Shown here: positions 25,901-38,877 of the stretch, piece by piece
How the letters are laid out: every line of letters begins with the position of its first letter
Numbering within the stretch: position 1 is the stretch's first letter
Assembly (NCBI GenBank): GCA_016927955.1
Contig: JAFGLR010000134.1
Span: 1-46,728 of the forward strand
Reading direction: 5' to 3'
Origin: Dehalococcoidales bacterium
GTDB taxonomy: Bacteria; Chloroflexota; Dehalococcoidia; Dehalococcoidales; JAFGLR01
DNA: 46,728 nucleotides
Made by a program: the position numbers and the translations under genes
The notes under the pieces: model-generated
What the model was told of the DNA's origin: nothing
The model's database searches: none
The model's input: only the letters and a program-made list of their open reading frames with translations

Positions 25901-28576
25901 ATGGATAATATAAAAGCGTTCTTTTCACCTGATAGCGTGGTCGTGGTCGGAGCTTCGGATAAGCAAGGTTCCGTAGCTAATGCCATATTAAAAAACCTGC
26001 TTGCAGGTAAAGATAAGCGGAAGGTCTTTACCGTAGGGACTAAAGGTAAAGCATATGATCTGCCTAAGTTTGATAATATAAGTTTACTTCCGGAGACCCC
26101 CGATTTAGCCGTTATCGTTACCAGAGCTGATACTGTCCCCGATATTATGGAAGAGTGCGCTAAAATCGGTATTAAATCGGTTATTGTTATTTCCTCAGGA
26201 TTTAAAGAAGTCGGTGACGAAGGAAAAGCCAGAGAAGATAGAGTAATCAAGATTGCTCGTAAAAACGGTATGCACATTCTGGGTCCAAACTGTATCGGTG
26301 TAATCAGACCATCCAGTAATTTAAACGCTACTTTCTCGGATAGAGTTCCAAAGCCGGGCTATGTTACCTTTCTTTCACAAAGCGGGGCGCTTGGTACGGC
26401 CGTATTGGACTGGGCAGTCAGTCAGGATATCGGTTTCAGCTCTTTTGTTTCATTAGGTTCTATGGTAGACTTGGACTTTGGTGATTTAATCGATTACTTC
26501 GGTACCGATCCGGAAACCAGAAGCATTATTATTTATATGGAATCGATTGGTAGCGAATTAAAGAATGCCCGTAAATTCATGAGTGCGGCAAAAGGTTTCG
26601 CACGAAACAAACCGATTATCATATTAAAACCTGGTAAATTTCCGGAAAGCACAGCAGCCGCAATGTCTCATACCGGTGCCATGGTGGGAGTAGATGCATA
26701 TTATGATGCTGCTTTCGACCGTTCCGGTGCAATACGGGTTGAGGAAATAAAAGACCTGTTTAACTGTGCGGCGATATTAAATACTTCCTACTTACCAAAA
26801 GACCCGCGTCTGGCAATCGTCACGAATGCCGGCGGGCCGGGAGTTTTAGCTACCGACGCTTTAATAACACTTTCAGGTAAACTAGCGAAATTAAACGATA
26901 AAACAATAAAAGACCTGAATGAAGCAATGCCTCCTTCATGGAGTAAGAGCAACCCCATTGACGTATTAGGTGATGCCACTCCCCAGCGTTTTGCTAAAGC
27001 TATAAATATCGCCCTACAAGACCAAGGAGTAGGCGGTTTGCTCGTTATTTACGTTCCAACGTCAATTACAACGGCAAGTGCTCTTGCTCAAGAACTGGTC
27101 AAGCTAAAACCAACCCTTAATAAACCTATATTAACTGTTATGATGGGCGGTGCCGATGCTGCTAAAGCCAGACAATACCTTTATGAAAACGGTATACCGA
27201 GTTACGAATTTCCCGAAGAAGCTATCCAAACATATTTATATATGTATAAGTATAAGGGTAATCTCGACCTTTTATACGAAGCTCCAGAACAGTTATTAAT
27301 GGATATCGGGGCTCCCAAAAATTATTTAAAAATGATGATGCGGAACGCTCTGAAAAGCGGACGGACGTTGTTAAATGAAGAGGAATCGAAGAATCTGCTG
27401 ACTGCTTACAGGATAAACTCGACAGTACCCAAACCCGCCAGGACTGTTGAGGAAGCGGTTGCCCTGGCACAAGAAATGGGATATCCGGTAGTAATGAAAA
27501 TAAATTCCCCAAATATTTCGCATAAGTCGGATATCGGCGGTGTGAAACTTGGTTTAAATAACCCTGAAGCTGTGCGAAAAACTTTCGATGATATGGTGGC
27601 CAATGTAAAGAAAAAACAACCTAATGCAAACATAACCGGTGTAACGATACAAAAAATGATTACCGGCTATGATTATGAACTTATTATCGGTAGTAAAAAA
27701 GATAATGTACTGGGTCCGGTAATTATGTTTGGGGCGGGAGGCACCAGTGCCGAGTTTTATAAAGACATAGCAGTAGGATTACCGCCATTAAACCAGACGT
27801 TGGCCAGGCGTCTAGTCGAGAAAACTAAAATTTACAAGATGCTATCTGAAGGGTTCCGTAATAATCTGCCGGTTAACTTACTGACAATCGATGAAGTACT
27901 GGTGAAAATATCCAATATTATTATAGACTTTCCGGAAATTAAAGAGCTGGATATCAACCCGCTGGTAATCAAGAAGGATGCGATTGCTCTGGATGCACGG
28001 GTAATACTCGATGATAAAGTTATAAACGGAGAACAATACGGTCACTTAATCATATCTCCTTACCCGGTGAAATATATCGAAACCTGGACAACTAAAGATG
28101 ATAAGTCTCTAACTCTGAGACCGATTCGACCTGAAGATGAGATAATGGAAAAAGAGTTACTCGCCGGATTGTCCGAGGAAACACAAAGATTCCGTTTCTT
28201 TGAACCATTAAAAGACATTACCCATGAAATGCTAATCCGGTATTGTAACATAGATTACGAGCGGGAAATGGCGTTTGTCGCAGAATATAATGTCGGCAAG
28301 AAAAAACGTATTGTAGGTGTTAGCCGGTTGATAATCAACGCAGACCTGCAAACAGCCGAATACGCTGTACTGGTAGCTGATGATTTTACCAACCTTGGAT
28401 TGGGGTTAAAATTGAGCGATAAAATCGTAGGCTTTGCAAAAGAGAAAAATCTTAAAAGAGTATTCGCGATAACGCTGGATGACAACAAGCGAATGAAGGC
28501 TTTAGGCCGGAAACTAGGTTTCATAACTAAAGAACGGCAAAATAATGAAATAGAACTGGTTCTCGAATTCGATTAG
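25901..28576 (+). CDS. ADP-forming acyl-CoA synthetase-like protein with C-terminal GNAT domain
   Basis: CoA-binding DSVVVVGASDKQGSVANAIL; AAMSHTGAMVG; ATP-grasp; C-term LTLRPIRPEDE...NLGLGLKLSDKIVGFAKEKNLKRVFAITL. Confidence 0.9.
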   Translation: MDNIKAFFSPDSVVVVGASDKQGSVANAILKNLLAGKDKRKVFTVGTKGKAYDLPKFDNISLLPETPDLAVIVTRADTVPDIMEECAKIGIKSVIVISSGFKEVGDEGKAREDRVIKIARKNGMHILGPNCIGVIRPSSNLNATFSDRVPKPGYVTFLSQSGALGTAVLDWAVSQDIGFSSFVSLGSMVDLDFGDLIDYFGTDPETRSIIIYMESIGSELKNARKFMSAAKGFARNKPIIILKPGKFPESTAAAMSHTGAMVGVDAYYDAAFDRSGAIRVEEIKDLFNCAAILNTSYLPKDPRLAIVTNAGGPGVLATDALITLSGKLAKLNDKTIKDLNEAMPPSWSKSNPIDVLGDATPQRFAKAINIALQDQGVGGLLVIYVPTSITTASALAQELVKLKPTLNKPILTVMMGGADAAKARQYLYENGIPSYEFPEEAIQTYLYMYKYKGNLDLLYEAPEQLLMDIGAPKNYLKMMMRNALKSGRTLLNEEESKNLLTAYRINSTVPKPARTVEEAVALAQEMGYPVVMKINSPNISHKSDIGGVKLGLNNPEAVRKTFDDMVANVKKKQPNANITGVTIQKMITGYDYELIIGSKKDNVLGPVIMFGAGGTSAEFYKDIAVGLPPLNQTLARRLVEKTKIYKMLSEGFRNNLPVNLLTIDEVLVKISNIIIDFPEIKELDINPLVIKKDAIALDARVILDDKVINGEQYGHLIISPYPVKYIETWTTKDDKSLTLRPIRPEDEIMEKELLAGLSEETQRFRFFEPLKDITHEMLIRYCNIDYEREMAFVAEYNVGKKKRIVGVSRLIINADLQTAEYAVLVADDFTNLGLGLKLSDKIVGFAKEKNLKRVFAITLDDNKRMKALGRKLGFITKERQNNEIELVLEFD

Positions 28577-28607: not shown

Positions 28608-28637
28608 TTGACAGTTAGAAGAATAACTTAGTATTAT
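28608..28637 (+). promoter_or_regulatory. Sigma70-like promoter TTGACA-N18-TATTAT
   Basis: Direct motif match upstream of 28701 operon. Confidence 0.6.
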
Positions 28638-28651
28638 TGTTTAAAACGTAT

Positions 28652-28668
28652 ACCTAGAGCATCTAGGT
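28652..28668. promoter_or_regulatory. Palindromic operator candidate ACCTAGA-GCA-TCTAGGT
   Basis: Perfect 7-bp half-sites, same arms as at 33048-33064. Confidence 0.7.
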
Positions 28669-28700
28669 GCATATTGGAAGATTTTTTGCGTAAGGAAGAT

Positions 28701-29852
28701 ATGGGTGAAACAAAACTAGATTCATTAGAACTTTTTCGAGAAGTAAACCGGACTTTTCCTAATACTAAAGAAATCCAGGTATTAAAAGAGCAGGGCGGCA
28801 AAGTATTTGGCTGGCTCTGTACTTATGTTCCGGAAGAAATAATCATTGCGGCTGGAGCACTTCCAATACGTATTACCGGATATAACCAGGAAGTTGAACT
28901 TGAAGACGGTAACGCTTACCTTTACATCAATAATTGTTCTTTTTCCCGCAGTTGTTTACAGATGGGCTTGCGGGGAGAATACGCTTATCTAGACGGAGTA
29001 ATCGGCGGTTCTACCTGTGATGGAGCCCGTCGTTTATTCGATTTATGGCGTTATTATATCGACCTACCGTTCTCGCATATTCTCACCGTACCGCGAAAAT
29101 ACACTGATGAAGCTCATAAGTTGTATTATGAACAGGTTTTACAATTTAAAGAAGCGTTCGAAAAGTACCTTAACATAACAATTACCGATGAAGCATTATT
29201 AAAGTCAATAACAGTTTTAAACGAGTCCCGAGAATTACTAAAGAAACTCTATGAGCTACGGAAATTACCTCAACCGCCGATAACCGGTACGGAAACAATG
29301 GAAGTGTTAAATGCTAGCTTCAGGATGCCTAAAGAACAGTTTAATCAATATTTAAAGCAATTATTACAGGAACTCGATAGTTCCGATATTAAACACTCCT
29401 GCAAGGCCAGATTGATGGTAACCGGCAGTGTGATGAACAATCCGGAATTTATTAAATCGATTGAAGACCTTGGGGCATTAGTAGTAACCGATGAATTATG
29501 CTCCAGTACACGCTATTGGTCGGACCCGGTCATTCTGGACGGACGCCCTCCGCTTGAGGCTATATCGAGGCGTTACCTGAATAACTTTCCCTGTGCCAGG
29601 ATGGTGCCCTCCGATGGCCGTTTTGACCGGATTATAGAACTGGTGAAAGATTATAAAGTAGATGGCGTCATCAGCCAGATTATTAGATATTGTGTGCCTT
29701 ATGCCCATGACTTGCCTTTAATTACAAGTAAGCTTAAAGAAATTAACACACCCACTTTATCTCTAGACGTAGAGTATGGTACCTCAGGTTCTGGACAAAT
29801 CCGGACCAGGGTACAGGCATTTTTAGAAATGCTGGAGACGAAGAGGAAATGA
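28701..29852 (+). CDS. 2-hydroxyacyl-CoA dehydratase / benzoyl-CoA reductase BcrC/HgdB-type subunit
   Basis: GWLCTYVPEEIIIAAGALPIRI; SFSRSCLQMG; GVIGGSTCDGARRLFDLW; SD AAGGAAG before ATG 28701. Confidence 0.88.
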   Translation: MGETKLDSLELFREVNRTFPNTKEIQVLKEQGGKVFGWLCTYVPEEIIIAAGALPIRITGYNQEVELEDGNAYLYINNCSFSRSCLQMGLRGEYAYLDGVIGGSTCDGARRLFDLWRYYIDLPFSHILTVPRKYTDEAHKLYYEQVLQFKEAFEKYLNITITDEALLKSITVLNESRELLKKLYELRKLPQPPITGTETMEVLNASFRMPKEQFNQYLKQLLQELDSSDIKHSCKARLMVTGSVMNNPEFIKSIEDLGALVVTDELCSSTRYWSDPVILDGRPPLEAISRRYLNNFPCARMVPSDGRFDRIIELVKDYKVDGVISQIIRYCVPYAHDLPLITSKLKEINTPTLSLDVEYGTSGSGQIRTRVQAFLEMLETKRK

Positions 29853-31117
29853 CCGTAACGCAAGAAGTAACCAAAATAGATTCCCTTATTCGAATGGTCA
29901 ATTATATGGCCCGGATGAATAAATCCCGTCCGAATGCCAGGAAATCCCAGACCATGTATTTCGATATGCTTGTGGAATATTATTCACGTATACGCGATGC
30001 AAAAAAGAACGGGGAGTTTCTTGCTTCTCATACGGTATTTTTCCCAACCGAAATTCTGTATGCGATGGACATTGTTCCGATGCATACCGAGATGACAACC
30101 TGGTTAATCGCTTTATTTCTTAAAGAACAGGCAAATTTATTATCTAAAAGTGCTGAGTTGGGTCTGTCACCGGAAATATGTTCACCCCATAGGGGAGTGG
30201 CCGGCATACTCGCTTCAAAATATATTCCCCGGCCGGATGCTGTTCTCTGGTCAAACTTAATTTGCGATAACACTGCCAAATCAGGTGAACTGATGATGGA
30301 GCTTAACGGCAGCCCCGGTTACTTTGTTGATAACCCATTCCAGTGTTCGCAAGGCGAATTGGATTATTTGGTCAGTGAATTGAAGGGTATGATTGAATTC
30401 TTGGAGAGATTGTCCGGTAAGAAAATGAACTGGAACAAGCTCTCGGAATTGATTGAAAATACCAATACAGAGATAGCACTTTATCGGGAAATCAGCGAGT
30501 TAAGAAAAGCTACTCCTTCACCTGCTTCGATTTTAAGCTATTTGGAACTACTTGCTGCCGATTATATGTTTCCCGGACAAGCACAAGCAGAACAATACCT
30601 GACCCGGTTCCGTGATGAATTGAAGGAAATGATAAAAAACGGGATAGGGGCCGTACCGCAAGAGCGGTTCCGTTTGATGACTTTATTCATCCCCCCTGTG
30701 TTTTTAATCGCCTATTTGGGTTCTTTATATGAAGAACTGGGAGTTGTCAGCGTTACCGAACCGATGTTTTTCCAGTGGCCCGAATTTAAATTAGACCCAT
30801 CTAAGCCGCTGGAAAGCGTAGCGAAAAAATCGTTTATGATACCGGAACGGCGTAGTATGTACGGTCCGTTAAGCGACGTTTCTTTGCAGGATATTACCGA
30901 TTGTGCTCAGCAGTATAAAATCGATGGTGCCGTGTATTGGGCTTTTATGGGATGCCGGCACACCTGTGCGACGATAAAAATAGTTAAAGAAAAACTTAAC
31001 GAAATCGATATTCCGATGCTAACAATCGATTGCGACCTCGTTGACCCAACGATCACATCGGAAGAAGAAGTACGAGGGAAAGTGGAACAATTCTGTGAAT
31101 TGCTGGAAGACCGCTAG
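29849..31117 (+). CDS. 2-hydroxyacyl-CoA dehydratase / benzoyl-CoA reductase second catalytic-type subunit
   Basis: FFPTEILYAMDIVPMHTEM...SPEICSPHRG...WSNLICDNTAKSGELM; overlaps previous stop. Confidence 0.87.
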   Translation: MTVTQEVTKIDSLIRMVNYMARMNKSRPNARKSQTMYFDMLVEYYSRIRDAKKNGEFLASHTVFFPTEILYAMDIVPMHTEMTTWLIALFLKEQANLLSKSAELGLSPEICSPHRGVAGILASKYIPRPDAVLWSNLICDNTAKSGELMMELNGSPGYFVDNPFQCSQGELDYLVSELKGMIEFLERLSGKKMNWNKLSELIENTNTEIALYREISELRKATPSPASILSYLELLAADYMFPGQAQAEQYLTRFRDELKEMIKNGIGAVPQERFRLMTLFIPPVFLIAYLGSLYEELGVVSVTEPMFFQWPEFKLDPSKPLESVAKKSFMIPERRSMYGPLSDVSLQDITDCAQQYKIDGAVYWAFMGCRHTCATIKIVKEKLNEIDIPMLTIDCDLVDPTITSEEEVRGKVEQFCELLEDR

Positions 31118-31120
31118 ATT

Positions 31121-31909
31121 ATGAATACTATCGGTATCGATATCGGCAGTCTCAATACAAAAGTAGTGCTACTTGGCGATAATGCCATAATCGGCAGTAG
31201 CATTATTCCGACCGGTGAAGAATCGGCAGAATCGGCTAAACAGGCTATTACCGAAGCGTTAAAACAAGCCGGTTTAAGTCAAGACGGCCTTCCGATTGTA
31301 GCTACCGGAATCGGCAGCAAGTCAGCCGCTTTTATAACTCAACAAAAGACGATTACTACTTGCATGGCAAGGGGCGTCCGTTATTTGTTCCCGGCAGTAC
31401 GGATGGCTATCGATATGGGTGCGGAAAGCACCACTGTAATTAAAATAAATGAACGCGGCAAACTTGCCGATTGGACAAACCAGGATAAGTGTGCCTCCGG
31501 TACAGGATTATTTTTACAGCAAATGGCCAAATTGATGGCGATGTCCATGGATGAAATGGCTGTATTCTCTTTACAGGCTAAATCAAGAGCGGAAATTACT
31601 AATACCTGTGCAGTATTTGCGGAATCCGAAGTTATTTCCCACGTGCACCGCGTACCGCCGACACCGAGAGAAGATTTAGTGGCAGGTATTTATTACTCAG
31701 TTGTCAGCCGTGTTATTTCTTTATGTAAGAGGGTGGGTATCGAAAAGGAAATTGCTGTGATCGGTGGAGTAGCTAAAAATATCGGTTTAATTACAATATT
31801 AGAAACAGAACTGGGATGCCAGGTAGCGAAACCGGTTGAACCTCAAACAGTAGTTGCTTTAGGAGCGGCGATTATCGCCCGGGAAAATGCCGAGAAGGGT
31901 ATTAAATAG
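31121..31909 (+). CDS. BadF/BadG/BcrA/BcrD-type ATPase (dehydratase activator), 262 aa
   Basis: GIDIGSLNTKVV; DKCASGTGLFL and TCAVFAESEVIS cluster-Cys motifs. Confidence 0.92.
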   Translation: MNTIGIDIGSLNTKVVLLGDNAIIGSSIIPTGEESAESAKQAITEALKQAGLSQDGLPIVATGIGSKSAAFITQQKTITTCMARGVRYLFPAVRMAIDMGAESTTVIKINERGKLADWTNQDKCASGTGLFLQQMAKLMAMSMDEMAVFSLQAKSRAEITNTCAVFAESEVISHVHRVPPTPREDLVAGIYYSVVSRVISLCKRVGIEKEIAVIGGVAKNIGLITILETELGCQVAKPVEPQTVVALGAAIIARENAEKGIK

Positions 31910-32977
31910 ATGATTGTTGCCGGTATAGATATTGGTTCGCGAGCGGCAAAAACCGTTATATTAAAAGACGGAAAAATAATCTCCGCAACTATCCGCGATA
32001 CAGGGCCGGAGAGTGTGAAAACTTCCTATTTGGCAATCAATGCCACGATAGAAGGAACCGGGTTAACTTTAGATAATGTCGATTATATAGTCGCAACAGG
32101 ATACGGCCGTGTTTTAGTACCCTTTGCAAAAGAAAACGTTTCAGAAATAAGCTGTCATGCCCGCGGTATTAATTATTTTTATCCATCGGTTACAACAATT
32201 CTGGATATGGGCGGACAGGATTGTAAGGCGATACGAGTCGATCAAGAAGGGCACGTGAACAACTTTGTAATGAATGATAAATGTGCCGGCGGTACCGGAC
32301 GTTTCCTGGAAATGATTGCGGATGTGCTAGGAACAAAGCTGACGGATATTGGTGATGTAGCATTACAATCGAAGAATACCATACCTTTCAACACAGTCTG
32401 TGCAGTATTTGCCAAAACTGAGGCGATATCGTATTTAAGGCGTGGTGAGTCACGAAGTGATATTTTAGCCGGGTTGAATGATGCCATCGCCACACGCTGC
32501 CTTAATTTATTAAAAAAGGTCGGCATCGAAAAAGATTTCACTATCACCGGCGGCATCGCTAAAAATAAAGGTATGGTTGCTAAAATTAAAGAGAGAGTTG
32601 GACTGGAACCTTTACTGGCAGAAGACCCGCAGCTCATTGGAGCTCTGGGTGCTGCGTTATTCGCCCAGGAACGATTAATGGGTAAAAGTACCGGAGAACA
32701 GGGCAAAATCCAATACGGATATAACGATGGCAACGGAGATTATTACATTACAATAGACCTTGCTCAATGCAATGGCTGCCGTGAGTGTGTCACAACCTGT
32801 CCGGCCGGCATATTTGAAGTATTGCAGGAAGACGGACGAAAGCCTAAAGCCAGAGTTACCGAAGCTACCCGTAAAAAACTGGCTATTTTATGCCCGGGAA
32901 TTCTATCTTGCTCCAATTCTAATAACAAAACCTGTCAGAGTGCTTGTCCACAAAAAGCAATTACTTTAACGTGGTAA
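31910..32977 (+). CDS. BadF/BadG/BcrA/BcrD-type ATPase with C-terminal ferredoxin domain
   Basis: GIDIGSRAAKTV; DKCAGGTGRFLE; CAVFAKTEAIS; C-term CNGCRECVTTCPAG...C...CQSACP. Confidence 0.92.
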   Translation: MIVAGIDIGSRAAKTVILKDGKIISATIRDTGPESVKTSYLAINATIEGTGLTLDNVDYIVATGYGRVLVPFAKENVSEISCHARGINYFYPSVTTILDMGGQDCKAIRVDQEGHVNNFVMNDKCAGGTGRFLEMIADVLGTKLTDIGDVALQSKNTIPFNTVCAVFAKTEAISYLRRGESRSDILAGLNDAIATRCLNLLKKVGIEKDFTITGGIAKNKGMVAKIKERVGLEPLLAEDPQLIGALGAALFAQERLMGKSTGEQGKIQYGYNDGNGDYYITIDLAQCNGCRECVTTCPAGIFEVLQEDGRKPKARVTEATRKKLAILCPGILSCSNSNNKTCQSACPQKAITLTW

Positions 32978-33006
32978 TAACTATTCAATAATGAATCGAT
33001 ACCTTA

Positions 33007-33035
33007 TTGACAAATCCATAATGAGTCGGTAATAT
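33007..33035 (+). promoter_or_regulatory. Sigma70-like promoter TTGACA-N17-TAATAT
   Basis: Direct motif match upstream of FAS-II operon. Confidence 0.65.
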
Positions 33036-33047
33036 CTTTATATCTGT

Positions 33048-33064
33048 ACCTAGACTTTCTAGGT
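33048..33064. promoter_or_regulatory. Palindromic operator candidate ACCTAGA-CTT-TCTAGGT
   Basis: Same arms as 28652-28668, same offset from -10. Confidence 0.7.
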
Positions 33065-33079
33065 ATAATAGGATTGAAA

Positions 33080-33484
33080 ATGGCTCATGAAATAAAAATA
33101 AGCGATTTGGTAAAAGACTTTAAATTTCCGCCGGTAATATATTCTATCGATTCCGGTGAAGTAAATGCATATACGAAAGCCGTAGAAGACAATAATGCAA
33201 TTTATACCAATAACGGCTATATCCCGCCAATGGCTGTTGCAGCTTTAGCCATGACCACAATGGGCGAACAGATGTCTTTGCCAAGCGGCTCGATTCATGT
33301 ATCGCAAGAGTTTACCTTTTCTAATATAGTCCGACCGGGAGATAACCTTACCAGTCAGGCTTCGGTCATACGTAATATTGAGCGTGGTAAAATCCATATG
33401 CTAACTATCGGCATTGACATTACTAACCAACAGAAACAGACAGTATTACACGGAGAAACCGGGTTTATATTACCCCGGGCATAA
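33080..33484 (+). CDS. MaoC/FAS1-like hotdog protein lacking the hydratase-2 Asp/His motif (HadA-like)
   Basis: SIHVSQEFTFSNIVRPGDNLTSQASV; degenerate EDNNAIY in motif region. Confidence 0.78.
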   Translation: MAHEIKISDLVKDFKFPPVIYSIDSGEVNAYTKAVEDNNAIYTNNGYIPPMAVAALAMTTMGEQMSLPSGSIHVSQEFTFSNIVRPGDNLTSQASVIRNIERGKIHMLTIGIDITNQQKQTVLHGETGFILPRA

Positions 33485-33495
33485 GAGTAAATTCA

Positions 33496-33918
33496 GTGTA
33501 TAGACCAGACGATTTATTAATAGGAATGCCTTTAAAAGAACTTAAGAAGCTGATTAAACAGGATAGTATCAATATGTATGCTGAAGTCAGCGGCGATAAG
33601 AACCCGATACATTTAGACCCCGAATTCGGTAAAAAGATGCAACTTGGTGGGACAATTGCACATGGAATGATAATACTGGCCTATGTCTCCGAGTTTATGC
33701 TAAACAACTTTGGACCGGATTGGTTGACTACTGGTGAAATGAATATTAGATTTAAAGAACCGGCCAGGCCGGGTGATAATATAATTATCTCCGGTAAATT
33801 AACCAATATAGATAAAGATGCCGACCAAGCAAAAATAACTTGCGATATGGTTTGTCAGAACCAGAAAGAACAGGTTATCATTACCGGCGAAACGAAAGTG
33901 AGGTTAAGGACATTATGA
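33496..33918 (+). CDS. MaoC-family hotdog dehydratase with intact hydratase-2 motif (HadB-like)
   Basis: YAEVSGDKNPIHLDPEFGKKMQLGGTIAHGMI. Confidence 0.88.
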   Translation: MYRPDDLLIGMPLKELKKLIKQDSINMYAEVSGDKNPIHLDPEFGKKMQLGGTIAHGMIILAYVSEFMLNNFGPDWLTTGEMNIRFKEPARPGDNIIISGKLTNIDKDADQAKITCDMVCQNQKEQVIITGETKVRLRTL

Positions 33919-34928
33919 AAATTGCCGTCGATGCCATGGGCGGTGACTTTGCTCCTGAGGAGATTGTTAAAGGTTCGGTAAGCGGAGCTAAACAATATGA
34001 TACAGGCATAACATTAGTGGGTCCGCAGGAGCGTATTCAGGCGGAATTAGCCAAGTATGATACTGCCGGATTAGATATCGATATTTTACATACAGACGAA
34101 TATCTTATTGAAGGCGAGCAACCGGCGTTTGCCTTGCGAGCTAAACGGAAAGCATCAATATTAATGGCTGCCAAATTAGTCCGTGATGGCAAAGCGTCTG
34201 CTGCGGTAGGAGTCGGTCCTACGGGCGGAGTATTTGCTGCGGCAGTCGGCGTTTTAGGCGTATTGGAAGGATTAGCAAGACCGGTTATAGGCGGTAACTT
34301 CCTTGGTTTCGCACCGAATACTGTCGTCATCGATTTAGGCGGTAATGTAGATTCACGTCCCGACCAGTTATTGGACTTTGGTATTATCGGTATGGTCTTC
34401 GCCAGAAAATGGATGAATATTGAAAATCCCACCATAGCTTTACTCAGCAACGGAGCCGAAGAAGGTAAGGGTAACGAGGTTGTTAAAGAGACTTACGGTT
34501 TATATAAAAAATCAGGTCTGAATTTCATCGGTAATGTTGAAGGACATGATGTAGCCTCAGGTAAAGCTAATGTAGTAGTTTGTGATGGGTTTGTCGGAAA
34601 TACCATTGTTAAATTCTGTGAGGGTTTAGGTGCAGTTACCGCTGAGTGGTTAGAAAAAAAACTAACTGGAAAGATTCCGGCCGACGAACTAAAGAATATG
34701 ATTGTTGAATACAAGAAAGCGACAATATCCGCCGATAACACCGGCGGCGGCCCACTACTCGGTATCAACGGTGTTGTTTTTAAAGCCCACGGACGGAGTA
34801 AAGCTCCCGAGGTTGCCACTACTATCGGTACAGCCAAAAAAATGGTTGAGATAGACCTTGTAGGTACGCTAAAAGCAGAATTACAGTTCGTGAGAAGCAA
34901 ACTGAATATATCGTATACTAATAGTTAA
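33915..34928 (+). CDS. plsX: Phosphate acyltransferase PlsX
   Basis: MKIAVDAMGGDFAPEEIVKG; GFVGNTIVKFCEGLG; ATG at 33915 overlaps previous TGA. Confidence 0.94.
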   Translation: MKIAVDAMGGDFAPEEIVKGSVSGAKQYDTGITLVGPQERIQAELAKYDTAGLDIDILHTDEYLIEGEQPAFALRAKRKASILMAAKLVRDGKASAAVGVGPTGGVFAAAVGVLGVLEGLARPVIGGNFLGFAPNTVVIDLGGNVDSRPDQLLDFGIIGMVFARKWMNIENPTIALLSNGAEEGKGNEVVKETYGLYKKSGLNFIGNVEGHDVASGKANVVVCDGFVGNTIVKFCEGLGAVTAEWLEKKLTGKIPADELKNMIVEYKKATISADNTGGGPLLGINGVVFKAHGRSKAPEVATTIGTAKKMVEIDLVGTLKAELQFVRSKLNISYTNS

Positions 34929-34954: not shown

Positions 34955-35209
34955 ATGGCGGTTAATGCCTCAGTTGAAGAAACAATAAAAAAGATTGTAA
35001 TGAAAATTGTTAGGAAACCGGATATGGAATTCACGCCGACGGCCACTTTTAAGGATTTAAAGGCCGATTCTCTGGATGTAGTACAAATTCTGGTGGCTAT
35101 CGAAGATACTTATGAAATCGAAGTTAACGATGAGGAAATGAAAAACCTTTCCGATATGGGTAGTTTCGTCGCATACATCGAACAGAAAATCGCTGAAAAG
35201 AATAAATAA
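34955..35209 (+). CDS. acpP: Acyl carrier protein
   Basis: LKADSLDVVQILVAIEDTYEIEVNDEE phosphopantetheine site. Confidence 0.94.
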   Translation: MAVNASVEETIKKIVMKIVRKPDMEFTPTATFKDLKADSLDVVQILVAIEDTYEIEVNDEEMKNLSDMGSFVAYIEQKIAEKNK

Positions 35210-35226: not shown

Positions 35227-36012
35227 ATGTTGTTAAAGGGTAAATTAGCTTTAATTACAGGCGGTTCGCGGGGTATCGGTCGGGCTATTACTTCTAAATT
35301 AGCCTCAGAAGGCGCCGATGTAATTATCAATTTCCTGCGGAAAAAAGAAACTGCAGAAAAAGCAGCACAAGCTATAAGAGAAAAGGGCGTTAACGTTCAC
35401 CTTATCCGAGCTAACCTGGCTGAACCGGAAAAAATTGACCGGATGTTCACCGAGATTACTGAAAAGTTCGGCAAATTAGATATTTTAATTAACAACGCCG
35501 CTTCCGGAGTTGCCCGTCCGGCGATGGAACTCGATGTCGATGGATGGGATTGGACGATGGACATTAATGCCAGAGCCGGATTACTCTGTGCTCAAAGAGC
35601 GGCCAAGCTAATGAAGAGTGGCGGTGCTATCGTTAGCATTTCCAGTCTTGGTTCCCGGATGGTAATGTCATCTTATACAGCTGTTGGTGTTTCAAAAGCG
35701 GCTCTTGAAGCATTAACCAGGTATCTGGCTGTCGAACTCGCGCCGAAAGGTATCCGCGTAAATGCGATTTCTGCGGGAGCTGTAGAATCCGAGGCTTTAC
35801 GGATGTATGCCAATGACCCGAATATTCCCAAACCGGCGATAATGACTACTCCGGCCGGTCGTATGGTCGTAGGTGATGATATCGCTAACTTAGTGGCGTT
35901 TCTATGCAGCGAAGAAGCTTCTATGATAAGGGGGCAAACCATAATCATCGACGGTGGTTTATCTTTATCCTCGCTAACTAATCAGCAACAAAACAATAGC
36001 AAAGGAGCTTAA
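35227..36012 (+). CDS. FabL-like SDR (enoyl-ACP reductase candidate)
   Basis: ALITGGSRGIGRAI; SYTAVGVSKAALEALTRYLAVELAPKGIRVN. Confidence 0.8.
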   Translation: MLLKGKLALITGGSRGIGRAITSKLASEGADVIINFLRKKETAEKAAQAIREKGVNVHLIRANLAEPEKIDRMFTEITEKFGKLDILINNAASGVARPAMELDVDGWDWTMDINARAGLLCAQRAAKLMKSGGAIVSISSLGSRMVMSSYTAVGVSKAALEALTRYLAVELAPKGIRVNAISAGAVESEALRMYANDPNIPKPAIMTTPAGRMVVGDDIANLVAFLCSEEASMIRGQTIIIDGGLSLSSLTNQQQNNSKGA

Positions 36013-36013
36013 A

Positions 36014-37246
36014 TTGGTCAAACAAAGAGTGGTCGTTACCGGGATGGGAGCGATAACCCCACTCGGTTTAACTGTGGAAGAACACTGGCAGGGACTGATT
36101 GCCGGAAAGTCCGGTATCGTACCGATTACTGATTTTGATTGCACTAAATTTGTCGTTAAAGTAGGCGGACAAGTAAAAGGCTTTGAACCTACCGATTATA
36201 TGGATATCAAAAGAGTAGATCGGACGTCACTGGTCACTCAATACGGCATAGCTGCCGTTAAAATGGCACTGGCTGACGCCCGCATCGACATGAGTAAAGA
36301 AAAGCCGGAGAGAGTAGGTTGTATTATCGCTACTGCCGGAGGATTGCATTTATTACTCGACATGGGAGTAGTCATGCATGATAAAGGACCGTCACGTGTC
36401 GATCCCTTAACGCTGAGTAAAGTCGCTCCAAGTATGGTACCGACGATTATCGCTCTGGAATTCGGATTAAAGGGACCTAATAGCAGTATAAACAGTGCCT
36501 GTGCTAGCGGTAACGATGCACTTGGCACGGCATTGAATTTACTACGACTGGGACATGCCGATATTATAGCTGCCGGGGGGTGTGAAACCCAGGTTAATCC
36601 TTTATCCATCGCACTCTGCAGCCGCGTCGGTGCGATGTCTAAAGAACCGGATCCCCAAAAAGCTTGCCGGCCTTTTGATTTAAACCGGAGCGGCTTTGTT
36701 TTTGGCAACGGTGCCGGTATTTTGATATTGGAAACATTAGAACACGCTAAGCAGAGGGGAGCGAATATTATCGCCGAATTATCCGGTGCCGGTTGGTCCT
36801 TCGATGCTTTTAATGAAACCGCACCGGACCCAAACCAGGAATTAATAGCGATGAAAATGGCCTTACAGGATGCCGACTTGCGCCCGGACGATATTGATTA
36901 CGTAAACGCTCATGGAACGAGTACGAAATTAAATGACATATCCGAAACTAAGGCCTTGAAAATGTTGTTAGGCGATCGGGCTTATAAGGTTCCGGTTAGT
37001 TCCAATAAATCAATGATAGGCCACCTTGCGTGTGCCTCTGGTGCTGTTGAGGCAGTCGGGGCAGTGATGACGGTTAAAGAAAATATTATTCCGCCAACGG
37101 TTAACTACGAAATACCCGACCCGGAATGCGACCTTGATTATGTGCCTAACGGTGCCCGAAGGCAGGTAGTGAATACTTGTCTTTCTAACTCTTTCGGTAT
37201 GGGTGGACAGAATTGCAGCATTGTTATAAATAAGTATAAAGAATGA
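36014..37246 (+). CDS. fabF: Beta-ketoacyl-ACP synthase II
   Basis: RVVVTGMGAITPLG; NSACASGNDALG; NAHGTSTKLND; SMIGHLACASGAVEAV. Confidence 0.95.
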   Translation: MVKQRVVVTGMGAITPLGLTVEEHWQGLIAGKSGIVPITDFDCTKFVVKVGGQVKGFEPTDYMDIKRVDRTSLVTQYGIAAVKMALADARIDMSKEKPERVGCIIATAGGLHLLLDMGVVMHDKGPSRVDPLTLSKVAPSMVPTIIALEFGLKGPNSSINSACASGNDALGTALNLLRLGHADIIAAGGCETQVNPLSIALCSRVGAMSKEPDPQKACRPFDLNRSGFVFGNGAGILILETLEHAKQRGANIIAELSGAGWSFDAFNETAPDPNQELIAMKMALQDADLRPDDIDYVNAHGTSTKLNDISETKALKMLLGDRAYKVPVSSNKSMIGHLACASGAVEAVGAVMTVKENIIPPTVNYEIPDPECDLDYVPNGARRQVVNTCLSNSFGMGGQNCSIVINKYKE

Positions 37247-37995
37247 GTGAAGATATTTTATTAAAAGATAGAGTTGCTCTGGTAACCGGTGCCTCACGTG
37301 GTCTGGGCAGGGCTATTGCGATTAGTTTAGCCCGGAATGGTGCGAAAGTTGCTATTAACTACCTTTCCAATGATACTGAAGCAAATAAGGTAGCTGAAGC
37401 CATCCAAGCCGATGGCGGTGAGACGATGATGGCTAAAGGCAGTATTGCGGATGGTACTTTCGTAAAAGATATGGTAAAACAGGTAGTCAAGCAATGGGGA
37501 AAATTAGATATTCTCGTTAATAATGCCGGCATCACCCGGGATAATCTATTGCCCCGGATGGCGGATGAAGCATGGGATGAAGTGATGAATACCAATCTGC
37601 GGGGAGCTTACCTTTGTACTAAATTTGCCGTCCGCCCGATGATGGAACAATCCTGGGGACGTATTATCAATATCGCTTCCTTAGCGGGAGTAATAGGCAA
37701 TATGGGACAAGCTAACTATTCCGCTTCTAAAGGGGGGCTGATAGCTTTTACAAAAAGCGTGGCACGTGAGGTCGGCTCACGAAAAATTACGGCTAATGTT
37801 ATCGCCCCCGGTTTCATTGTCACCGATATGACCGGTAAATTACCTCAAGAAGCCAAAGACAATATTTTAACGCGGATTCCTTTAAAGAGATTCGGTACTC
37901 CTGATGATATTGCTTCTCTGGCGGTGTTCCTCGCCGGCGAATCCGCAGGTTATATTACGGCTCAAGTAATATGTGTCGACGGCGGAGTTATTTAA
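37243..37995 (+). CDS. fabG: 3-oxoacyl-ACP reductase
   Basis: ALVTGASRGLGRAIA; NNAGITRDNLLPRM; NYSASKGGLIAFTKS. Confidence 0.95.
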   Translation: MSEDILLKDRVALVTGASRGLGRAIAISLARNGAKVAINYLSNDTEANKVAEAIQADGGETMMAKGSIADGTFVKDMVKQVVKQWGKLDILVNNAGITRDNLLPRMADEAWDEVMNTNLRGAYLCTKFAVRPMMEQSWGRIINIASLAGVIGNMGQANYSASKGGLIAFTKSVAREVGSRKITANVIAPGFIVTDMTGKLPQEAKDNILTRIPLKRFGTPDDIASLAVFLAGESAGYITAQVICVDGGVI

Positions 37996-38025: not shown

Positions 38026-38877
38026 ATGAGTACGGTTGGAATCATCACTGATACCATCGCCTGTCTGCCTGGAGAAAAAATCAAACAATATAATATAGGC
38101 ATTGTTCCGGTGGCACTTAACATTAACGGAAAACCCTATCTCGACCAGGTAGACATCACCCCTGCTGATTTCTGGAAAATATTTCCCACGATGAAAGAAC
38201 TTACTACCGGAGCACCTCCCATCGGTATATACCTCGAAGTATTCGAGAAAGCCAGTAAATCGACTAATAATATCGTCTGCACTTTTGTCTCTAAAAATCT
38301 CAGTGCTATCTTTGAGACCGCTGTCCAGGCTAAGGAGCTATTTAAAAAAGATTATCCTAATGTAAACATCGAAATTATCGATAGTAAGACAGCGGCCGGA
38401 GCACAGGCGTTTATTGTTTTAGAAATGGCTAAAGCGGCTGAAGCTGGGAAGAGTCTGGCTGAGGTAGCCAAGGTCGGGGAAGAAATGACGCACCGAGTAA
38501 AGTTTTTCTGTGCGATGGATACTTTAAAATATCTTATTAAAAGCGGCCGGGCACCGAAGACTGCTTATATGGGTGAGCTTTTTCAAATTAAACCTATTAT
38601 CGGAATGGTTGACGAGTCTGGTATAGTACAGAATATTGGCAGAGCCAGAGGCAAACGAGCGGCCATGAAAAAGCTGGTTGATTTGATAAAGGACTATGCG
38701 GATATTAATAAACCGCTGCATGTTTTTGTTCATTTTACAGATAATATCGAAGACGGCGAAATATTAAAGAAAATGGTCACCGACCAATATAAATGTGCCG
38801 AATTATATATGACCGATTATACTCCGGTCATGTCCGGACATACCGGTCCTGTTTTCACGGTAGCCTTTTATTCATAG
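38026..38877 (+). CDS. DegV family (FakB-like fatty-acid-binding) protein
   Basis: GIITDTIACLPGE..., FCAMDTLKYLIKSGRAPK...FQIKPIIGM. Confidence 0.92.
   Translation: MSTVGIITDTIACLPGEKIKQYNIGIVPVALNINGKPYLDQVDITPADFWKIFPTMKELTTGAPPIGIYLEVFEKASKSTNNIVCTFVSKNLSAIFETAVQAKELFKKDYPNVNIEIIDSKTAAGAQAFIVLEMAKAAEAGKSLAEVAKVGEEMTHRVKFFCAMDTLKYLIKSGRAPKTAYMGELFQIKPIIGMVDESGIVQNIGRARGKRAAMKKLVDLIKDYADINKPLHVFVHFTDNIEDGEILKKMVTDQYKCAELYMTDYTPVMSGHTGPVFTVAFYS

Follow-up and report, generated by a model that had tools for sequence, protein, structure and literature searches.

Results

A shared palindrome at two adjacent operons

The window analysed here is a 46,728-nucleotide stretch of DNA from a Dehalococcoidales bacterium in which two adjacent operons lie on the forward strand. 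The first resembles the genes for 2-hydroxyacyl-CoA dehydratases and benzoyl-CoA reductases (HGD/BCR-like). It encodes an HgdC/BcrC-like subunit (28674..29852, with a likely true start at ATG 28701; PF06050), an HgdB/BcrB-like subunit (29849..31117; PF06050), an activase ATPase (31121..31909; PF01869) and a second activase ATPase with a C-terminal ferredoxin-like domain (31910..32977; PF01869 and Fer4). Directly upstream, at 25901-28576, is an ADP-forming acyl-CoA synthetase-like protein with a C-terminal acetyltransferase-like domain; smaller homologs of this protein adjoin the PadR gene described below in genomes of family f15.

The second operon encodes type II fatty-acid synthesis (FAS-II) in the order MaoC-MaoC-PlsX-ACP-FabL-FabF-FabG-DegV. 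The two dehydratases are MaoC/HadA-like (33080..33484) and MaoC/HadB-like (33496..33918; PF01575). They are followed by the phosphate acyltransferase PlsX (33840..34928, likely start 33915; TIGR00182 above cut-off), an acyl carrier protein (34955..35209), a FabL-type enoyl-ACP reductase (35227..36012; NF005975 above cut-off), the ketoacyl-ACP synthase FabF (36014..37246), the ketoacyl-ACP reductase FabG (37243..37995; TIGR01830 above cut-off) and a DegV/FakB-type fatty-acid-binding protein (38026..38877; TIGR00762 above cut-off). The acyl carrier protein and FabF were assigned by sequence, and both recur in the FAS clusters of relatives.

Each operon is preceded on the same strand by a sigma-70-like promoter and a palindrome. 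The promoter of the HGD/BCR-like operon (28608..28637) consists of TTGACA (28608-28613), an 18-nt spacer and TATTAT (28632-28637), and 14 nt separate TATTAT from the 17-bp core ACCTAGA-GCA-TCTAGGT (28652-28668) of operator 1, TACCTAGAGCATCTAGGTG (28651..28669). The promoter of the FAS-II operon (33007..33035) consists of TTGACA (33007-33012), a 17-nt spacer and TAATAT (33030-33035), and 12 nt separate TAATAT from the core ACCTAGA-CTT-TCTAGGT (33048-33064) of operator 2, TACCTAGACTTTCTAGGTA (33047..33065). An earlier note, made from the sequence alone, had placed both promoters and both cores at these coordinates, and all of them held exactly. With 14 fixed bases, the number of perfect matches expected by chance is approximately 0.0002 per 46.7 kb and 0.009 per 2.29 Mb. 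There are two in the window and three in the genome, plus one genomic site with a single mismatch.

Sites in the genome containing the window

Searching the 2.29-Mb genome that contains the window (G000) for ACCTAGANNNTCTAGGT within one mismatch gave only four sites, and a reversed-pattern control gave none. Two are the operators described above. The third (contig C56) is 20 nt upstream of DegV, which is followed by a FakA-like DAK2 protein, and the fourth (contig C67) is 18 nt upstream of PlsY, which is followed by a glycosyltransferase (GT) and a full FakA-like protein. All four strong sites thus precede genes with fatty-acid or phospholipid functions. The earlier note had claimed that one regulator acts at both operons of the window. 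This claim is strongly supported by the four sites at lipid genes and by the recurrence of the same pairings in other families. It would have been refuted by many genomic occurrences outside promoters, which the genome-wide scan did not find.

A weaker site, matching the refined motif given below with one mismatch, precedes an alaS-like gene (G000:C39:2452-2470, L031) and may be due to chance; alaS (L005) was neither accepted nor discarded as a target. Single-mismatch matches within coding sequence (L009, L013, L016 and L018) were discarded as background, and matches with two mismatches each (L006-L008) were treated in the same way.

The motif across the order

We searched 156 genomes of the order Dehalococcoidales (class Dehalococcoidia). 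Allowing at most one mismatch, TACCTAGANNNTCTAGGTA occurred 51 times compared with once for the control. The collected sites showed that the palindrome is really 19 bp long with a more degenerate centre, TAC(C/A)TAG-N5-CTA(G/T)GTA. The strict 14-base pattern had missed many sites in PadR promoters because the 19-mer is variable at positions 4, 8, 12 and 16, and the motif was then refined. Exact matches to the refined motif TACMTAGNNNNNCTAKGTA (TACMTAG-N5-CTAKGTA) numbered 72 in 45 of the 156 genomes, compared with two for the control. The two half-sites are almost invariant and the five central bases are free to vary, as in an operator bound by a dimer.

The start of the –10 hexamer is mostly 2-22 nt, and typically 5-20 nt, before the 19-mer, which places the site across the –10 box or shortly after it. 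The spacing varies between targets, and many sites overlap or abut the hexamer itself. For 65 oriented sites, the best nearby TTGACA-TATAAT pair had a mean score of 10.4 compared with 8.2 in shuffled upstream sequence. This is the position expected for the site of a repressor, although repression is an inference made from sequence alone.

The nearest genome (G001, of the same family) contains seven sites within one mismatch. Five of these are at DegV-FakA, HgdC, FabG, the MaoC1 FAS cluster and DegV. The pairing of operator 1 with its gene is found in this genome and at further loci, and that of operator 2 is found in G001, G105, G106 and G144. When sites were de-duplicated, 74 of 85 distinct sites were located at lipid genes, at one of two families of membrane proteins or at a conserved PadR regulator: PadR/HAAS (31 sites), a small membrane protein (8), DegV (7), PlsY (7), FabG/SDR (6), MaoC1 (5), HgdC (5), PorA-like (3) and FakA/DAK2 (2). 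The remaining 11 were left without an assignment or were one-off cases, among them dxs, two sites by branched-chain-type ABC ATPases and contig ends. The sites, their positions, their target genes and their conservation are shown.

Several individual sites deserve mention. The operator recurs upstream of a family of small membrane proteins of about 120-130 residues (L054, L055, L066, L075, L039, L162, L217 and L218), whose best match in Pfam, where there is one, is to PorA and below threshold, and it lies 14-23 nt upstream of PorA-like (PF11271) membrane proteins (L035, L067 and L069). One site is 15 nt upstream of dxs, a gene of isoprenoid precursor synthesis (L213:2533, G014:C19). The sites adjoining branched-chain-type ABC transporter ATPases are in different families (L026, G001:C85; L070:9143, G096:C1), and these ATPases are a possible extra target.

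A PadR-HAAS pair is the candidate regulator

At 11 early loci the site lay before a gene for a PadR-family protein of about 111 residues, with genes for a HAAS-type membrane protein and DegV next in line. We built a PadR profile from nine of these loci. Searches with this profile detected a strong ortholog in 61 of the 156 genomes, clearly separated from other PadR proteins. The refined motif was present in 46 of 62 ortholog promoters within one mismatch and in 52 of 62 within two, covering 15 of 18 families, and it was mostly 36-50 nt before the start. As a comparison, we calculated the chance of a one-mismatch motif as approximately 1e-4 per promoter. HAAS is directly after PadR in 58 of the 62 loci, DegV is next in 49, and PlsY then follows in 15. 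Across families the motif is found more often at the PadR promoter than at any other single location, and its presence there at a conserved position is what autoregulation would be expected to leave, although autoregulation itself is inferred.

The genome containing the window encodes a PadR ortholog of 111 residues (G000:C116:42764-43093; E 4.7e-50 in the profile search) in the cluster folC-PadR-HAAS-DegV-PlsY, where folC was identified by eye. It scores 90.7 bits against PF03551; the PadR of locus L056 scores 101.8 bits. The adjacent HAAS protein scores 23.1 bits against Pfam HAAS, below the cut-off of 27, compared with 28.3 bits, above the cut-off, for that of L056. Hydropathy indicates several transmembrane-like segments in the own-genome HAAS protein between residues 80 and 294. 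No recognizable site was found in the PadR promoters of G000 and G001, the two genomes of the window's family, where the best match has four mismatches. The assignment of PadR there thus rests on orthology and synteny, and autoregulation seems to have been lost or to be absent in this family.

Sites outside the PadR promoter were found in 30 of 68 genomes with PadR compared with 4 of 88 without it (Fisher p = 1.8e-9). The lists were coded by hand and the test was not corrected for relatedness. If only genomes at least 80% complete are considered, a single exception remains, G093, whose PadR match is truncated and falls short of the threshold. Sites without a detected PadR were also found in G011, G025 and G106, all of them 69-78% complete. 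In about half of the genomes with PadR, no strict site lies outside the promoter of that gene. The genomes of family f8 (G008, G044 and G075-G083), near-complete and mostly on single contigs, have neither a close PadR ortholog nor the operator. In the other orders of the class, PadR orthologs occur commonly and the motif only rarely; of the PadR promoters examined there, three carry the motif with one mismatch. The synteny, the co-occurrence and the presence of sites in PadR promoters across families are shown; that PadR binds them is inferred.

The reductase operon is linked to lipid genes

Relatives of HgdC that are 57-79% identical occur at 22 further loci, often in one operon with PlsX, ACP, MaoC1/2 or FakA, and several of these loci have the operator upstream. 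The earlier note had tied the radical dehydratase/reductase to fatty-acid synthesis, and these shared operons support this independently of the operator. At L190, L192, L196 and L198-L201 the four-gene BCR/HGD-like system is found in lipid operons with PlsX, ACP, MaoC or FakA.

Like benzoyl-CoA reductases and 2-hydroxyacyl-CoA dehydratases (BzdN, HadC, HgdC), the system combines a pair of PF06050 subunits with a pair of BcrAD-type activases, and its closest solved relative is BzdN (8s02). Unlike these enzymes, the window's subunits reached no BCR or dehydratase equivalog cut-off (TIGR03190, 185.7 compared with 453.8; TIGR02263, 153 compared with 421), and the genes of relatives lie within lipid operons. 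Identification as a benzoyl-CoA reductase was rejected on the missed cut-offs for curated BCR subunits. The operon sharing with PlsX, ACP, MaoC and FakA may point to a role in lipids rather than in aromatic or amino-acid degradation. It is possible that the operon encodes a lipid-modifying reductase, which is plausible because plasmalogen synthases have two activation and two reduction domains (PMC12838417); the reaction is not established. Identification as a plasmalogen synthase is unproven and was not adopted. The DUF2229 (PF09989) family occurs in plasmalogen-synthase-type reductases. The same genome encodes DUF2229 proteins away from the window's operon (G000:C34:38879-40566 and G000:C11:999-2199).

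Discussion

These data support the idea that the palindromes serve as operators in a regulon for membrane lipids in Dehalococcoidia, with the PadR-HAAS pair as the most likely regulator. We consider this likely (probability roughly 0.83), and there are no binding or expression data. In this model, a dimer of the small winged-helix PadR would bind TAC(C/A)TAG-N5-CTA(G/T)GTA. Since the operator overlaps or closely follows the –10 box, bound PadR would block RNA polymerase at the FAS-II, HGD/BCR-like reductase, DegV-FakA and PlsY-GT-FakA operons. The HAAS membrane protein, through its cytosolic helical domain, may relieve repression by relaying to PadR a signal from the membrane or from acyl lipids. 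Repression rather than activation, the HAAS signal and the physiological cue are all inferred.

Another possibility is that the regulon is real and is controlled by a different DNA-binding protein, such as one of four TetR proteins, a MarR or an unknown factor, with PadR-HAAS merely one of its targets. The PadR operon holds lipid genes (DegV and PlsY) and could itself be a target, the PadR promoters of the window's own family lack the site, and the genome does encode four TetR proteins, so this cannot be formally excluded. However, PadR promoters account for 31 of the 85 sites and 46 of 62 orthologs carry one, which is the pattern of autoregulation. Additionally, the presence of PadR tracks that of the sites, FapR was not detected, and the motif persists in some PadR promoters of other orders where it is otherwise rare. 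We therefore regard a different regulator as unlikely.

It is less likely still that PadR is an activator or that the palindrome functions in RNA as a hairpin of the 5' leader near +1. In its favour, the sites of some targets fall at approximately +5 to +25, within the part that would be transcribed. On the other side, many sites overlap or abut the –10 hexamer, the free centre and nearly fixed half-sites resemble a dimer operator, and those PadR-type proteins that have been characterised in Listeria are repressors (PMC6624303). Activators usually have their binding sites upstream of the –35 box. Chance, or shared descent of the two promoters without a common regulator, can be all but ruled out. 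The two sites are only 4.4 kb apart and both promoters contain TTGACA, but about 0.009 perfect sites are expected per genome compared with three observed, and the site is common to unrelated promoters on other contigs. Chance was rejected on the control counts (4 compared with 0 in the genome; 51 compared with 1 and 72 compared with 2 across the order).

The PadR-HAAS regulon has parallels in known systems. In Bacillus subtilis and Staphylococcus aureus, the fap regulon uses a 17-bp inverted repeat within or just after promoters (PMC5052256). Both there and here, a single inverted repeat at this position marks fatty-acid and phospholipid genes globally and also occurs at the gene of the regulator (PMC5052256). 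FapR is an HTH-hotdog protein that senses malonyl-CoA. By contrast, the candidate here is a PadR without a hotdog domain. FapR was rejected as the regulator because it was not detected: NF003359 matched nothing in G000 and gave no hit above cut-off in 21 genomes. The controls that matched included Bacillus subtilis, and one control passed the cut-off. The FapR-like lipid-sensing logic suggested by the earlier note is thus right as an analogy, with lipid sensing inferred, and the regulator is not FapR but most likely PadR with HAAS.

A dyad of HAAS and a PadR-like winged helix-turn-helix protein was described in 2024 and proposed to handle membrane signals in place of a two-component system; signal transfer from HAAS to PadR is a proposal of that study as well (PMC11237479). 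The pair described here meets its criteria of a standalone PadR-like winged helix and an adjacent HAAS protein with a transmembrane region. The published dyad is tied to PspC, Toastrack and envelope stress, whereas the dyad here is clustered with DegV and PlsY and is predicted to control a lipid regulon across the genome. The relevant sections of PMC11237479 report neither an operator nor a lipid regulon for the dyad. Listeria has the PadR repressors LltR, LstR and LadR (PMC6624303). LltR is likewise a PadR protein that represses its own expression and has a DUF1700 membrane protein encoded after it; it differs in acting most strongly on its own operon and on genes of envelope stress (PMC6624303), and no FAS-II regulon for LltR was found in the relevant sections of that paper. 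FabT of Streptococcus and Enterococcus represses FAS genes and is tied to exogenous fatty acids via Fak and PlsX (PMC9083066), and in this it resembles the candidate PadR, which would also be a FAS gene repressor linked to Fak/PlsX fatty-acid handling. FabT is a MarR-family protein, and its operator differs from the one here.

We found no prior description of a PadR tied to fatty-acid or lipid regulation or to Dehalococcoidia, and no global lipid regulator of Chloroflexota or Dehalococcoidia, in the literature searched, which mostly did not include subscription papers. A bolder reading, which seems to us slightly more likely to be wrong than right, is that many Dehalococcoidia rely on HAAS-PadR as their main switch for membrane-lipid homeostasis, a FapR equivalent made from unrelated parts. 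HAAS would sense the state of the membrane, and the pair would repress FAS-II, PlsX/PlsY, FakA/DegV and a dedicated reductase, the last being an ATP-driven radical-type acyl reductase that would make an unusual lipid.

Many Chloroflexota and Dehalococcoidia are known only as metagenome-assembled genomes, and the functions of the HAAS-PadR class are merely proposed. A named regulator, an operator, a list of targets and a promoter geometry can now be tested in vitro with synthetic DNA and without cultures. The finding also gives a place in lipid metabolism to an orphan BCR-like reductase and to small membrane proteins that Pfam does not clearly match. If the main reading is true, this would be a membrane-lipid control system new for Dehalococcoidia, in which HAAS-PadR is known as a class and the lipid regulon is, judging by the papers searched, new.
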